Both the position numbers and the translations under genes were made by a program. Positions 1 to 60,456 of a stretch of 64,000 bases of DNA are shown here, piece after piece. Under the pieces are notes generated by a model. It worked only from the letters and a program-made list of their open reading frames with translations. It was not told where the DNA came from and made no database searches. The stretch covers positions 124,001 to 188,000 of the forward strand of contig JAKAGV010000010.1 in assembly GCA_021815405.1 (NCBI GenBank). Direction: 5' to 3'. Each line of letters starts with the position of its first letter. Position 1 is the first letter of the stretch. This DNA comes from Bacteroidota bacterium. GTDB taxonomy: Bacteria > Bacteroidota > Ignavibacteria > Ignavibacteriales > Ignavibacteriaceae.

Positions 1-1668
1 ACCAAATTTAGCAGCTATACAACCGAAGAATTTTTTAGAGGTGTTCTGCTGCTGCTTGGTGCAGCTGTCGGTGTTGCTTTTATTTCAAGGCTTGCAAAGA
101 ATTTCCAGGATTACTACGTCAATGTTATTACACAGCGGCTTGGTACAAAAATTTATAACGACGGTATAGAGCATTCACTTAAACTTCCCTATTCTTTATT
201 TGAAGACCAGCGTAGCGGACAAACTTTAGGAGTTCTTCAGAAGGTCCGGACTGATGTTGAGAAACTAATTGCTGCAATTGTAAATATTCTTTTTACTTCC
301 CTGGTCGGAATCATTTTCGTCACGGTATACGCTATCAATGTCTATTGGTTAATAGCTCCGGTGTTTTTCTCGGCAGTTCCTCTTCTCGGAATCATCAGCT
401 CGGTGTTAAGTAGAAAAGTCAAAAAGATCCAAAAGAAAATTGTTGATGAGACTACTGCACTTGCAGGCTCAACAACAGAATCACTTCGGAACATAGAGCT
501 TGTTAAAAGTCTTGGTTTGGGCAAACAGGAAATAGGAAGGCTTAATTCTGTTACTGATAAAATCCTTGTACTTGAATTAAAGAAAGTGAAATATATCCGA
601 AGTTTAAGTTTTATTCAGGGAACATGCGTAAACTTTCTTCGTACTACTATCATCTTTATAATGCTTTATTTGATTTTCATCCGTGCAATTACTTTCGGCG
701 AATTTTTTTCTTTGTTCCTTTATTCATTCTTTATCTTCGGTCCGCTGCAATCTCTTGGAGATATAATTAATACTTACCGAGAAGCAGAAGTCTCACTCGA
801 TAACTTTGATAAATTGCTGAAGCAGCCGCAGGAGTCAAAGCCAGAACATCCGGTAAAAGTCGGAGAGTTTCGAACACTTGAGTTTGATGATGTAAGCTTT
901 AAACATCAGTCTGCAACTACACATGCATTAAAAGATATTTCTTTCAAAACCAAAGTAGGAGAAACCATAGCTTTCGTAGGACCATCCGGTGCCGGTAAAA
1001 CAACGCTGGTAAAGCTTCTCGTCGGATTGTATTCGCCACAGTCCGGAAAAATATTATATAATGATATTCCTTCTTCTGAAATAGATTTTGACGAGCTCAG
1101 AGAAAAAATCGGATTCGTTACTCAGGATACTCAGTTATTTTCAGGAACGATAAAAGAAAATCTGCTGTTTGTAAATCCAACTGCTTCAGATGAAGAATGT
1201 CTTGAAGTGCTTGGACTGTCTGCCTGTCAAAATCTTCTTGATAGAGCCGACCAAGGCATTAACACAATGATTGGTGAAAGCGGTGTAAAAGTTTCGGGCG
1301 GTGAGAAGCAGAGATTATCAATTGCTCGCGCTCTGCTACGGAGACCAAATATTTTAGTCTTCGATGAAGCAACATCTTCTCTCGATTCTCTTACAGAAGA
1401 AGAGATCAGTTCAACGATATGGGATATTTCGAGAAGGAATGATCTCTTAACAATTATGATTGCTCACCGGCTTTCAACAATTTTGCATGCAGATAAAATC
1501 TATGTCCTTGAGCGCGGCAGCATTGTAGAATCAGGCACTCATCTTGAGCTGCTTGAGCTTAAAGGTTTGTACTATGCAATGTGGCGTCAGCAAATCGGAG
1601 AGCGCGAGCGCGAAACTTCAGAACTGCTCGTCAACAGAAACGGAAATCTGGTAAATAATGAAGATTAA
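1..1668 (+). CDS. ABC exporter, fused membrane and ATPase domains (5' end missing)
   Basis: The reading frame is open from the first base, so the gene begins before the window; about 555 codons are visible. The N-terminal part is hydrophobic and matches the type I exporter membrane domain, and the C-terminal part is the nucleotide-binding domain. Seen in the ATPase part: Walker A GPSGAGKTT (about residues 327-335 of the visible fragment), signature VSGGEKQR, Walker B ILVFDEATSSLD and the switch histidine in IAHRLST. Proteins of this build dimerise in the inner membrane and export lipids, peptides or drugs; the substrate cannot be read from the sequence. A GTG at 361 is only an internal codon. 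The next gene follows after 199 bases and is probably separate. Confidence 0.9.
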   Translation, partial: TKFSSYTTEEFFRGVLLLLGAAVGVAFISRLAKNFQDYYVNVITQRLGTKIYNDGIEHSLKLPYSLFEDQRSGQTLGVLQKVRTDVEKLIAAIVNILFTSLVGIIFVTVYAINVYWLIAPVFFSAVPLLGIISSVLSRKVKKIQKKIVDETTALAGSTTESLRNIELVKSLGLGKQEIGRLNSVTDKILVLELKKVKYIRSLSFIQGTCVNFLRTTIIFIMLYLIFIRAITFGEFFSLFLYSFFIFGPLQSLGDIINTYREAEVSLDNFDKLLKQPQESKPEHPVKVGEFRTLEFDDVSFKHQSATTHALKDISFKTKVGETIAFVGPSGAGKTTLVKLLVGLYSPQSGKILYNDIPSSEIDFDELREKIGFVTQDTQLFSGTIKENLLFVNPTASDEECLEVLGLSACQNLLDRADQGINTMIGESGVKVSGGEKQRLSIARALLRRPNILVFDEATSSLDSLTEEEISSTIWDISRRNDLLTIMIAHRLSTILHADKIYVLERGSIVESGTHLELLELKGLYYAMWRQQIGERERETSELLVNRNGNLVNNED

Positions 1669-53143: not shown

Positions 53144-55165
53144 TTATCTCCCAATCAATGATTTAGCTTTTGATACAATGTTCTCCACTGTAAATCCGTA
53201 ATGCTTAAACAATTCATTCAAAGGTGCGCTTGCGCCGAATTTACTTATTCCAATTACATCGCCATTATCGCCAACCCATTCGCACCAGCCAAAAGGTGAG
53301 CCGGCTTCGACTGCAAGCCGCGCCTTTACAGACGGAGGTAAAACTTCATCCCGGTATTTCTGAGCCTGAGCCTTAAATAATTCCCAGCTCGGCATGCTTA
53401 CTACTCTTGCATCAATTCCTTCACTTATCAATTTTGTTTGAGCTTCAATAATTAATTGAACTTCCGAACCGCTGGCAATTAAAATTATATCAGGAGATTT
53501 TCCTTTTTCTCTCGAAAGGATATAAGCGCCTTTGAAAACGCCCTCGGCACCTGCAGTTTTATTACGATCAAATATAGGCAGTTTCTGGCGTGTAAGGACT
53601 AAAATTGTCGGACCGTCTTTCCTCATCAAAGCCGCACGCCATGCATAAGCCGTTTCATTAGCATCTGCGGGACGTATAATGCACATATGCGGCATAGCTC
53701 TTAGCGATGCGAGATGCTCAACCGGCTGATGAGTTGGTCCATCTTCGCCAAGACCAATTGAATCATGTGTCATTACATAAATAACCGGAAGCTCCATTAA
53801 TGCTGCAAGCCTTATTGCAGGCCGCGCATAATCTGTAAAAATAAAAAATGTAGAAGCGAACGCACGGAGACCGCCATGCAAAGTAATTCCCGATGAAGCG
53901 GCACACATTCCATGCTCGCGGACTCCCCAGGCAATATTTCTATTAGAATATTTTCCTTTTTCCAGATAACCGGAAATTTTCATAATCGTGTCGGTGGAAG
54001 GAGAAAGATCACCGCTGCCTCCGATAAGCCATGGAATGTTCTCCACGAATGCATTTATAACTTTGCTCGATGACGTACGTGTTGCCATTGCTCCATCTGT
54101 TGGTTTGAATACAGGAATATTTTTATCCCAACCTTCCGGCAAATCGGCTTTTAATGCTGATTCAAATTGCAAAGCAAGATCAGGATATTTCGTTTTGTAA
54201 TCATTATATTTTTTATGCCATTCCTCTTCCAAAGATTTACCGGCTTCAATTGCCTCATGCATATGCTCCAAAGCTTTTTCAGGAACTAAAAATTTTTCAT
54301 CTTCTGGCCAGCCATAGAATTTTTTCGTAAGCTTAACTTCCTCTTCTCCCAGCGGTGAGCCATGCGATTCAGAAGTATCCTGCTTGTGCGGGCTTCCATA
54401 TCCGATGTGAGTCCTAACTAAAATAAGAGAAGGCTTATCTTTAACATTCTTTGCTTTTGTAATTGCGTCAGATAGTAAATCCAGATTATTTGCGTTGTCT
54501 CCTACATTTTGCACATGCCAGTTATACCCTTCAAACCGCATCGCCACATTATCGGTATAAGCTAACTCAGTATTCCCTTCTATGCTGATGTGGTTATCGT
54601 CGTATATAAAAATTAATTTCCCTAGACCGAGATGACCTGCTAAAGATGCAGCTTCGTTTGACGCCCCTTCCATAAAATCGCCGTCACTGCAGAAGACATA
54701 AGTATAGTGATCGACAATATTAAATCCCTCGCGGTTAAATTTTTCTGCAAGATGAGCTTCAGCCATAGCCATTCCCACCGAAGTCATTATGCCTTGACCG
54801 AGTGGTCCGGTAGTTGTTTCTACACCGGGAGTAAGTCCGTGTTCAGGATGACCTGGAGTTATACTTCCCCATTGCCTGAAATTTTTTATGTCATCCAAAG
54901 TTAAGCCAAAGCCGCATAAATAAAGCATCGAATATAGAAGCATTGCTGCGTGACCGTTGGAGAGAATAAAACGATCGCGATTAAACCAATTTGGATTTTT
55001 AGGATTGAATTTTAAAAATTTTTTCCAAAGGACGTATGCGGAAGGCGCCAGTGCCATCGGTGCACCTGGGTGCCCTGAATTTGCCTTCTGAACAGCATCC
55101 ATTGATAATGTTCTGATTGTATTTATAGTCAGTTCTTCAATTGTCATTTTTTCGAGCGAAGCCAT
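53144..55165 (-). CDS. tkt: Transketolase
   Basis: 673 residues. N-terminus EELTINTIRTLSMDAVQKAN, then NSGHPGAPMALAPSAYVLW, thiamine-diphosphate motif FCSDGDFMEGASNEAASLAG (GDG-type, with the NxxN Mg2+ site), TPGHPEHGLTPGVETTTGPL, and the pyrimidine domain from about 355 (WGVREHGMCAASSG, DSIGLGEDGPTHQPVE). Moves two-carbon units in the non-oxidative pentose-phosphate pathway. First gene of the tkt, tal-pgi, zwf group; AGGTAGGTGAA lies upstream. Confidence 0.96.
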   Translation of the reverse strand: MASLEKMTIEELTINTIRTLSMDAVQKANSGHPGAPMALAPSAYVLWKKFLKFNPKNPNWFNRDRFILSNGHAAMLLYSMLYLCGFGLTLDDIKNFRQWGSITPGHPEHGLTPGVETTTGPLGQGIMTSVGMAMAEAHLAEKFNREGFNIVDHYTYVFCSDGDFMEGASNEAASLAGHLGLGKLIFIYDDNHISIEGNTELAYTDNVAMRFEGYNWHVQNVGDNANNLDLLSDAITKAKNVKDKPSLILVRTHIGYGSPHKQDTSESHGSPLGEEEVKLTKKFYGWPEDEKFLVPEKALEHMHEAIEAGKSLEEEWHKKYNDYKTKYPDLALQFESALKADLPEGWDKNIPVFKPTDGAMATRTSSSKVINAFVENIPWLIGGSGDLSPSTDTIMKISGYLEKGKYSNRNIAWGVREHGMCAASSGITLHGGLRAFASTFFIFTDYARPAIRLAALMELPVIYVMTHDSIGLGEDGPTHQPVEHLASLRAMPHMCIIRPADANETAYAWRAALMRKDGPTILVLTRQKLPIFDRNKTAGAEGVFKGAYILSREKGKSPDIILIASGSEVQLIIEAQTKLISEGIDARVVSMPSWELFKAQAQKYRDEVLPPSVKARLAVEAGSPFGWCEWVGDNGDVIGISKFGASAPLNELFKHYGFTVENIVSKAKSLIGR

Positions 55166-57921: not shown

Positions 57922-60456
57922 ATGTCATTCATAAAGAAAAATTTAAGAAATTATTTATTCCCCTTTGGATTAATAATTACATTAGTTTTCATCTCAATAG
58001 AAATAAATGGATATTTAAAACTGACAAGCGGATCGTCAGACGCAGACACCATTGCTAAAATAAAAAATATTTTAACTTATGGAATATTCGGTTCGATTGG
58101 GATGATCATACTTTTAGCAGTATACTTTCAAATTTCGTTTTACAAACCGATTAAATCTCTTTCAGAAAAATTGAAGTTGATATCTGAAAATGATTTTACA
58201 TCAATTTCTACTGCACTAACCGAAATGGCTCAAGGAAATTTGACCACTAACATAAAGCTTGAGAGCGGTATAATTAAAACTTCGGTAAACGGTAAGGTTG
58301 GCGAGATGGCTAGCCGGCTAAATTCTATTATTGAAAGTCTGAATGACGCTAGTAAGGAATTCAACTCCGCCACAGATAAGCCCTGCCAAAGGCTGTTTTA
58401 CGTTGGCGCTGATTCTTATATAGAAGGGCGGACATGCGGCGAAGCGATGGGAAAATTATTAAACGGCAAAGGCAAAGTTGCTGTTGTTCTGGAAAACTTC
58501 GGCATTATTGCGCATGAGCTTAGAAGAAAAGGTTTTCAAAATGCGTTAAGAGAAAAATTTCCCTCTGTTCAAATTATCGAATATGTTGAATCTTATTTGA
58601 ATGAAACTAAAAGTTATAATGAAACAACAGGACTGCTGAAAAAGTATCCGGATCTTGACGGTATATATGTTACTCATGGTGGCAGTGTAGTTGGTAGGGC
58701 GGTTTATGATTCGGGAAAATCAGTTAAGGTAAAAGTTGTATGCCATGACCTTGCAGATGAAACAATGAATTTTGTAAGCAAAGGAGTCATCAATGCAACA
58801 CTCTCGCAAGACGTGTTTGCACAGGGGCACGATCCGTTAATTCATCTATTCAATCATATTACAGCTAAATGGAATCCGGTTCAGCCGAGACTGCTAACAA
58901 ATATTGAATTGGTTACGCCTGAAAATTATACAAAGTATTGGCAGGCTGGCAAAGGAATAATTGAATCATCGGAAACCGCAGCACGAAGACCTAAACCAAT
59001 AAAAAAATCAACCCAGCAAATTAGAATTGCTGTACTTGGCAGAGAAGGAGATACTTTTTGGAAAGCGTTTAAATCCGGTGTAGATGCGGCGGCATCAGAA
59101 TTACGTCCATTTAATGCAATTGTTGATTGGATAATCCCTGAGGGATCGCATTCAAAAAATTCAATCGATATTACTGCAAAATACTACGGACCGGCTATTG
59201 AAAAATGCATTGAGCAAAAATACGATGCTGTAAGCACCGGCGTCTTCGATAAGCAGCTTATTCAATTTATTAACAAAGCGGTAGATAAAGGAATTGCTGT
59301 TGCTACTTTTAACAGCGAACCGAGAAATCTTAGAGGTATATTTGCAACTATGATTAACCGGGCAAAGATGCTGCTTGGTTTAAGTCACAAGCTTGCAGAG
59401 CTTGCACAAATGTCGGTGGATGCTTCGAACTATAATTCCAGCGCAGTTGAGCAAATGGTAAAAAGCTTGAACGAGGAAGCTTCATCTGTAGAAACTGCAA
59501 GCACTAACATGACTCAGATAGCTTCATCAATTGAAAATATTGCCAGGGATTCTCAAGAGCAGAAGAAAGCCGCAGAAAGAGTTTCTTCCTCTGCAGAGGA
59601 CATTTCCCGTGCAGTTAAATCTGCAAACCATAACGCCAGCAATGTTGTTAATGCATCATCAGATTCAATAAACATTGCTAAACTTGGAGCTCAAACAGTT
59701 AAGCAGAATCTTGAGCAGATGAAAAAGATTGATGAGACTGTCGGTCGTTTCGCTTCACAAATTGAAGAGATGTCAAAACAGTCTGAACAAATTGAAGAGA
59801 TAATTGAAACGATTGAAGAGATAGCCGAGCAGACAAATCTTTTAGCACTGAATGCAGCCATTGAAGCAGCCAGAGCAGGCGAGCACGGGAAAGGCTTTGC
59901 TGTTGTTGCAGACGAAGTTCGAAGCCTGGCTGAGCGTTCAGCAAATGCGACAAAACAAACATCAACCTTGATAAATAAAGTTCAGAAAGATATTTCAGAA
60001 GCAGGCGGTTCAATAAAATTAATTGTTGAAAAGGTAAAAGCTGGAACTGAGACAGCTAATAAGTCCGGAGAAGTAATTGATAAATTGTTATCTTCATCGC
60101 AGAATGTAAGTCAGCAAATAAATGAAATGGCGCTTGCAAATAATGAGATTGCAAGCGTTATGTCCGGCTTACTTGAATCAATCGAAAAGATTTCTTCCGT
60201 AATTGAACAGAATATGAGCGCTACAGAGCAGTTGAGTTCAGGAGTTGTTCAAACGGTTGAGATGATTAATAACGTTGCGGTAATCAGCCGTCAGAATGCT
60301 GCAACCATAAACGATATTTCAGAAAAGACGGAAAAGGCAAATGATGATGCGAAAGAAGTTGATCTGGTTGCCGCTGGTCTTGCGGAAATGGCTGATGAGC
60401 TTCAGGCAGCTACAGCGCAGTTTAAGATTGAATCCGACGATTACAAACTCAATTGA
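57922..60456 (+). CDS. Methyl-accepting chemotaxis protein with a circularly permuted sugar-binding-protein-like sensor
   Basis: 844 residues. Two membrane segments at about 11-28 and 52-70 leave only a short outside loop; a HAMP-like linker follows (about 71-112). Residues 156-345 match the C-terminal half of ribose-binding-type proteins ([62 protein letters not shown]). Residues 366-470 match the N-terminal half ([46 protein letters not shown]). The halves are thus in reversed order and should lie in the cytoplasm. The receptor signalling hairpin follows at about 630-680 ([18 protein letters not shown]). No che gene is nearby. Confidence 0.93.

Follow-up and report, generated by a model that had tools for sequence, protein, structure and literature searches.

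Introduction

Circular permutation of type I binding proteins is already known from TpMglB-2 (Tp0684) of Treponema pallidum, a glucose-binding protein assigned to 'Type Ic / Cluster Bc', a class whose members occur in treponemes and Gram-positive bacteria and are exported and tethered (PMC4990184). TpMglB-2 resembles the domain described here in having the type I bilobed fold with its N-terminal part shifted to the C-terminus, but it serves an ABC transporter as a secreted lipoprotein and belongs to no receptor, whereas the present domain would be a cytoplasmic part of a chemoreceptor.

Other systems share single properties with this receptor. Ordinary type I proteins (RbsB, MglB, GanP, AraP, CbpD and the Cohnella substrate-binding protein L065/L070) belong to the same Pfam family as the receptor domain, but they are exported, carry their halves in normal order and are separate from the receptor, none of which applies to the receptor domain. 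LacI/RbsR-type regulators contain a type I binding-protein fold in the cytoplasm, as proposed for the receptor domain, and differ from it by their normal order and their DNA-binding output. Cytoplasmic sensing is a property of PAS-type chemoreceptors. It has been described for ethanol with B. subtilis HemAT and McpB (PMC7542364). Like the receptor studied here, all of these would sense inside the cell, but through other domain types. Escherichia coli Trg, Tar and Tsr likewise obtain a chemotaxis output from a type I or other binding protein, using a separate periplasmic partner (PMC9602780), whereas here the binding domain is built in and predicted to be cytoplasmic. A survey of 82,277 chemoreceptors names Peripla_BP once in its main text, as Peripla_BP_5 in a table (PMC8547431). 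Searches of an open-licence literature collection turned up neither a permuted nor a cytoplasmic type I binding domain in any chemoreceptor.

Here we analyse a gene within a 64,000-nucleotide stretch of DNA from a member of the Ignavibacteriaceae (the window). We read its product, with a probability of roughly 0.7, as a membrane-anchored chemoreceptor that senses through a type I (RbsB/Peripla_BP_4) domain, circularly permuted and situated on the cytoplasmic side between HAMP and the signalling coiled coil.

Results

The halves of the binding-protein domain match in swapped order

The domain content identifies the product of 57922-60456 as a methyl-accepting chemotaxis receptor: a Pfam scan of the whole 844-residue protein placed MCPsignal on residues 580-760 (E 5e-45), and the conserved hairpin tip is present (Table 1). 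The same scan matched Peripla_BP_4 in two stretches (whole-protein E 8.4e-33), the best of them covering residues 147-303 and profile positions 86-244. The first-pass annotation had proposed that a segment related to the C-terminal half of RbsB-type proteins (C-half) precedes one related to the N-terminal half (N-half), and this order was recovered when the halves were scanned separately. Residues 151-343 alone matched Peripla_BP_4 positions 94-244 (E 3.2e-26) and residues 354-498 alone matched positions 6-94 (E 3.2e-8), with the latter profile range falling on residues ~372-470; the boundaries originally given (156-345 and 366-470) are correct to within about ten residues.

Table 1. Features of the receptor gene and its product, in window positions
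Feature	Residues	Position	Strand	Basis
Whole gene, chemoreceptor with internal permuted binding-protein domain		57922..60456	+	ORF, ATG start, 844 aa
Membrane helix 1, positive residues precede	about 13-33	57958..58020	+	hydropathy
Short outer loop	about 34-47	58021..58062	+	13-19 residues in family at fixed alignment columns
Membrane helix 2	about 48-72	58063..58137	+	hydropathy
HAMP-like linker	95-141	58204..58344	+	weak Pfam match
C-half of binding-protein domain, first in order	147-345	58360..58956	+	Peripla_BP_4 86-244; model m2316177dfe15
Linker from old C-terminus to old N-terminus	346-366	58957..59019	+	gap between two Peripla_BP_4 matches
N-half of binding-protein domain, second in order, ends with N-lobe strand 4	367-470	59020..59331	+	Peripla_BP_4 6-94/95; model's last strand
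FNS motif copy 1, C-half start	147-149	58360..58368	+	profile positions from 86
FNS motif copy 2, N-half end	463-465	59308..59316	+	profile positions up to 94/95
R201 = RbsB R141 / MglB R158	201	58522..58524	+	alignment
D276 = RbsB D215 / MglB D236	276	58747..58749	+	alignment
Q296 = RbsB Q235 / MglB N256	296	58807..58809	+	alignment
F379 W380 = RbsB F15 F16	379-380	59056..59061	+	alignment
N464 = RbsB D89 / MglB N91	464	59311..59313	+	alignment
MCP signalling domain, hairpin tip near residue 652	580-760	59659..60201	+	Pfam MCPsignal

The two segments had also been taken to make up one full domain in permuted order, and their profile ranges are indeed complementary. When the halves were put back in the ordinary order (residues 360-466 followed by 150-345), they produced one match to positions 6-244 of the 258 in the profile (134.8 bits, E 5.1e-39). 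The reordered domain also matched solved sugar-binding proteins continuously, for example GanP (query 18-278), and gave a continuous match to a Thermotoga glucose-binding protein (query 8-274). Complementary profile ranges together with a single match after reordering rule out two independent complete domains. In a six-frame search of its own genome, the receptor frame gave Peripla_BP_4 positions 86-244 and then 6-95; the 11 other places with a Peripla_BP_4 match were single stretches, six of them nearly end to end and five partial.

The family set comprises 16 distinct homologues that are 49-94% identical in pairs. Among ordinary proteins, the nearest relative encountered was a 352-aa Cohnella binding protein with its halves in normal order, 37% identical to the receptor domain in the N-half and 34% in the C-half; its gene adjoins an ABC transporter permease-like and an ATPase-like gene. 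With the Cohnella halves as queries, the C-half preceded the N-half in 16/16 family members (N-half E 6.5e-9 to 1.1e-3; C-half E 5.8e-36 to 1.5e-25). Among 29 ordinary proteins both Cohnella halves matched in 14, all in the order N-then-C, and in five of these both matches had E < 1e-3, one of the five being the query and two being identical. The receptor's own halves used as queries gave C-then-N in 9/9 family frames and N-then-C in 14/14 ordinary frames, with an N-half domain E < 0.001 in only 2 of the latter 14. The idea that the halves are unrelated to periplasmic binding proteins is contradicted by the Peripla_BP_4 matches and by the matches to the Cohnella halves.

An origin of the layout from two unrelated fragments, or from an assembly or alignment artefact, has a next to negligible probability. 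While the N-half alone scores 33.9 bits, slightly below the Pfam cut-off of 35.1, the layout recurs unchanged in 16 distinct sequences drawn from several genomes, three named MAG records among them, and reordering restores one continuous match. Taken together, these profile and pairwise comparisons establish the identity of the domain and the swapped order of its halves at the level of sequence.

The binding domain is placed in the cytoplasm

Hydropathy analysis of the window protein located hydrophobic stretches around residues 8-32 and 47-77 and nowhere else. In 16/16 family members two membrane helices flank a short outer loop, and no further membrane segment follows; the N-terminus is positive (+2 to +5) in every case, and the stretch after helix 2 is positive in 15/16 and neutral in the remaining one (L010). 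Beyond residue 90 the highest 19-residue mean hydropathy was 1.03-1.36 across the 16 members. Because no membrane segment separates the binding domain from MCPsignal, which is itself cytoplasmic, the predicted topology puts the binding domain in the cytoplasm, after the second membrane helix. This matches the position between HAMP and the coiled coil assigned by the first-pass annotation, with the hydrophobic segments confined to the first 75 residues. A periplasmic binding-domain region would be in keeping with almost all known relatives, which are exported binding proteins, but it is very improbable given that no 19-residue stretch after residue 90 exceeds a mean of 1.36, that the N-terminus is positive throughout the family and that the MCP domain must be cytoplasmic. 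We rejected it on the basis of the hydropathy topology.

A HAMP-like linker had been described ahead of the binding domain. It is present, but the Pfam match in the window protein is weak (E 0.033, below the cut-off); HAMP was found in 6/9 family members scanned (E <= 1), with a best E of 3.8e-4. Across the 16 sequences, invariant positions numbered 0/72 in residues 1-72, and 45/185 and 28/104 in the two halves. The outer loop appears too short for a usual sensor, making the conserved internal domain the candidate sensor.

Structural models and the relation to TpMglB-2

Single-chain AlphaFold2 models, built from four sequences, reached pLDDT 70.6 and pTM 0.61 for residues 140-505, and pLDDT 78.1 and pTM 0.72 for residues 150-473. 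When the first model (m4e921aab22bd) was compared with the PDB using VIA-align, 49 of the 50 entries listed stopped at or before model residue 220, equivalent to coverage of the C-half only. The exception among these 50 was TpMglB-2 (6bgc_B), which spans 3..316 with 281 residues, Z 19.9 and rmsd 3.7 Å. With the second model TpMglB-2 was not among the 50 VIA-align matches listed. Foldseek superposed TpMglB-2 entries on either model across 377-378 columns, but at an rmsd of 6.4-8.2 Å. The N-half is weak against PDB sequences (best single-sequence E 0.0031, best profile E 5.8e-4); with its profile, 11/12 rows at E <= 1 were sugar-binding proteins, matched in their N-terminal part. These results support a predicted arrangement in which both halves form one bilobed fold, at moderate model confidence.

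MCPs work as dimers, and the N-half of one chain could complete the C-half of the other by a domain swap across the receptor dimer. We consider this unlikely, as the single-chain model has both halves in one TpMglB-2-like fold and the 21-residue linker at 346-366 would seem sufficient for closure in cis.

The position of the cut distinguishes the receptor domain from TpMglB-2. The TpMglB-2 chain starts with N-lobe strand 4 (MglB N91 corresponding to N19; PMC4990184), whereas in the receptor domain that strand is retained by the moved N-half (MglB N91 corresponding to N464), so that the two cuts are one strand apart; the last strand of model m2316177dfe15 (310-313) corresponds to residues 459-462. 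TpMglB-2 was absent among the 57 PDB sequences matched (E <= 10) by a profile of the receptor domain, so that the permutation of the receptor domain may well have arisen independently of that in TpMglB-2.

A separate observation concerns PDB 5er3, a Rhodopirellula baltica binding protein. Its residues 270-331, near the C-terminus, match the first part of the receptor's C-half, residues 150-215 (E 5.8e-5 with a profile and E 0.078 with a single sequence), and the Foldseek alignment extends over 255-269 columns. The protein may be another permuted binding protein.

Origin and distribution of the permuted domain

The two Peripla_BP_4 matches overlap at profile positions 86-94/95, and an FNS motif is found at both domain ends. 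The first copy reads LNT or FNT in some relatives, a drift not shared by the second, which is kept as FNSEP (YNSEP in L118). Since the same stretch of the profile is present at both ends of the domain, it suggests that the permuted domain arose from a tandem duplication that then lost its outer halves.

A tree was built from the 16 family members, 27 ordinary proteins (E < 1e-8) and RbsB/MglB, without the binding proteins of the receptor's own genome (L101-L107). The family forms one clade (support 100/100), with the Cohnella protein as its sister (96/85); a long-branch warning attaches to this placement, which is therefore a lead.

Counting the receptor's own genome each time, full matches (E < 1e-100) were found in 3/395 genomes of the phylum sample and 5/80 of the family sample, and the class sample gave 13/391 genomes, from 4/190 genera and three families. 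Within the genus of genome G259 the figure was 8/13 genomes. A search of genome contigs returned three full or nearly full relatives (85, 62 and 62%) and one MCP-only match. Most of the weaker matches in the phylum sample came from ordinary binding proteins, or else from the membrane-HAMP region of other MCPs. The receptor architecture was not seen in 299 genomes of the Cohnella phylum, where at most 6 candidates were scored per genome and a miss is possible; 24 matches (E <= 1e-15) from this search lay in frames of 322-397 aa, and one 976-aa stop-containing frame resolves to a 337-aa binding protein. Elsewhere in the receptor's own genome, outside the window, a 413-aa frame (G000:C25:70666-71190) matches only Peripla_BP_4 81-257, the C-half.

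A partly conserved candidate ligand site

E. coli RbsB and MglB served as alignment references. For RbsB we used the set of positions that we take to contact the ligand, and these enter the 13-position count given below. Those of MglB are listed in Table 2 of PMC4990184. Five of the ten MglB ligand positions are invariant in the family (P 0.09, background 26%), and pooling the MglB and RbsB positions gave 8/13 invariant and 5 not (P 0.007), both P values treating sequences that are related and non-independent. A set of seven 'core' ligand positions and a P value of 0.0017 are biased, both having been chosen after the alignment was inspected.

The domain might no longer bind a small molecule, serving as a spacer, a dimer part or a protein docking site. 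MglB H152, D154, W183 and N211 are all replaced in the receptor family, the W183 position being Leu in 12/16 members and one of the four, residue 252, varying between Y, H and F. We nevertheless regard such a role as rather unlikely, because F379, W380 and N464 from the moved N-half and R201, D276 and Q296 from the C-half are invariant in 16/16 members, and the domain is retained in at least three families of the class; D377 is kept in 13/16. The partly conserved site fits a sugar-like ligand, with no particular compound named, and we infer that the cytoplasmic ligand would be small and neutral: a sugar, a polyol or a nucleoside.

Genomic surroundings of the receptor gene

The genome encodes at least three other MCPs. 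It also has two flagellin matches, with a CheW-MCP pair near one of these flagellin genes, and six CheW-type matches, one of them in a 615-aa frame. A metabolite could be sensed with output to a non-flagellar pathway, such as pilus motility or another Che-type pathway: the CheW-type matches lie on several contigs, so that more than one pathway is possible, and the receptor gene is not adjacent to a che cluster. Set against the flagellin genes and the nearby CheW-MCP pair, we judge this output to be quite unlikely.

No transport or sugar gene was linked to the receptor across the genomes compared, and the neighbours vary among relatives without hinting at a ligand. Transketolase-like, FAD oxidoreductase, YceI and M16 peptidase genes flank both the window copy and that of one relative (L005); they were dropped as a ligand hint, being absent beside more distant relatives. 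The transketolase-like gene, recognised by eye, lies upstream of the receptor at window positions 53144-55165 and likewise in L005. It is a possible, though unsupported, hint at sugar metabolism. In three distinct genomes (L006/L076 on the same contig, L007 and L071) two small genes (clusters 7 and 8) lie upstream and divergent to the receptor, one of them acetyltransferase-like by eye. In two genomes of the same genus (L074, L075), PP2C/SpoIIE-type phosphatase-like genes, again assigned by eye (cluster 4), adjoin the receptor.

Discussion

Permutation would bring the start and the end of the domain together at the first crossover between the lobes, at residues that lie next to each other in an ordinary binding protein. 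With both ends at this crossover, HAMP would enter and the coiled coil would leave at the hinge. Lobe closure on a ligand could thereby act directly on the coiled coil, shifting or twisting it and so changing CheA activity, and the cell would steer by the internal level of the bound compound.

We offer as a tentative proposal, which we hold at somewhat short of even odds, that a second and independent natural permutation, by tandem duplication and loss, made an exported sugar-binding protein into a hinge-coupled cytoplasmic receptor module, leaving these bacteria to steer by an internal sugar-like pool through a Venus-flytrap set in the receptor stalk. Overlapping copies of one stretch persist at the domain ends, which opens the evolution of permuted binding proteins to testing.

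The usual role of a chemoreceptor is to monitor the cell's surroundings, whereas here a domain family of nutrient uptake would sit inside the receptor, rewired by circular permutation. If the domain binds a metabolite, it would be a natural example of permutation coupling a binding cleft to a coiled coil, useful for sensor design, and the receptor would provide a direct and testable link from internal metabolic state to swimming.
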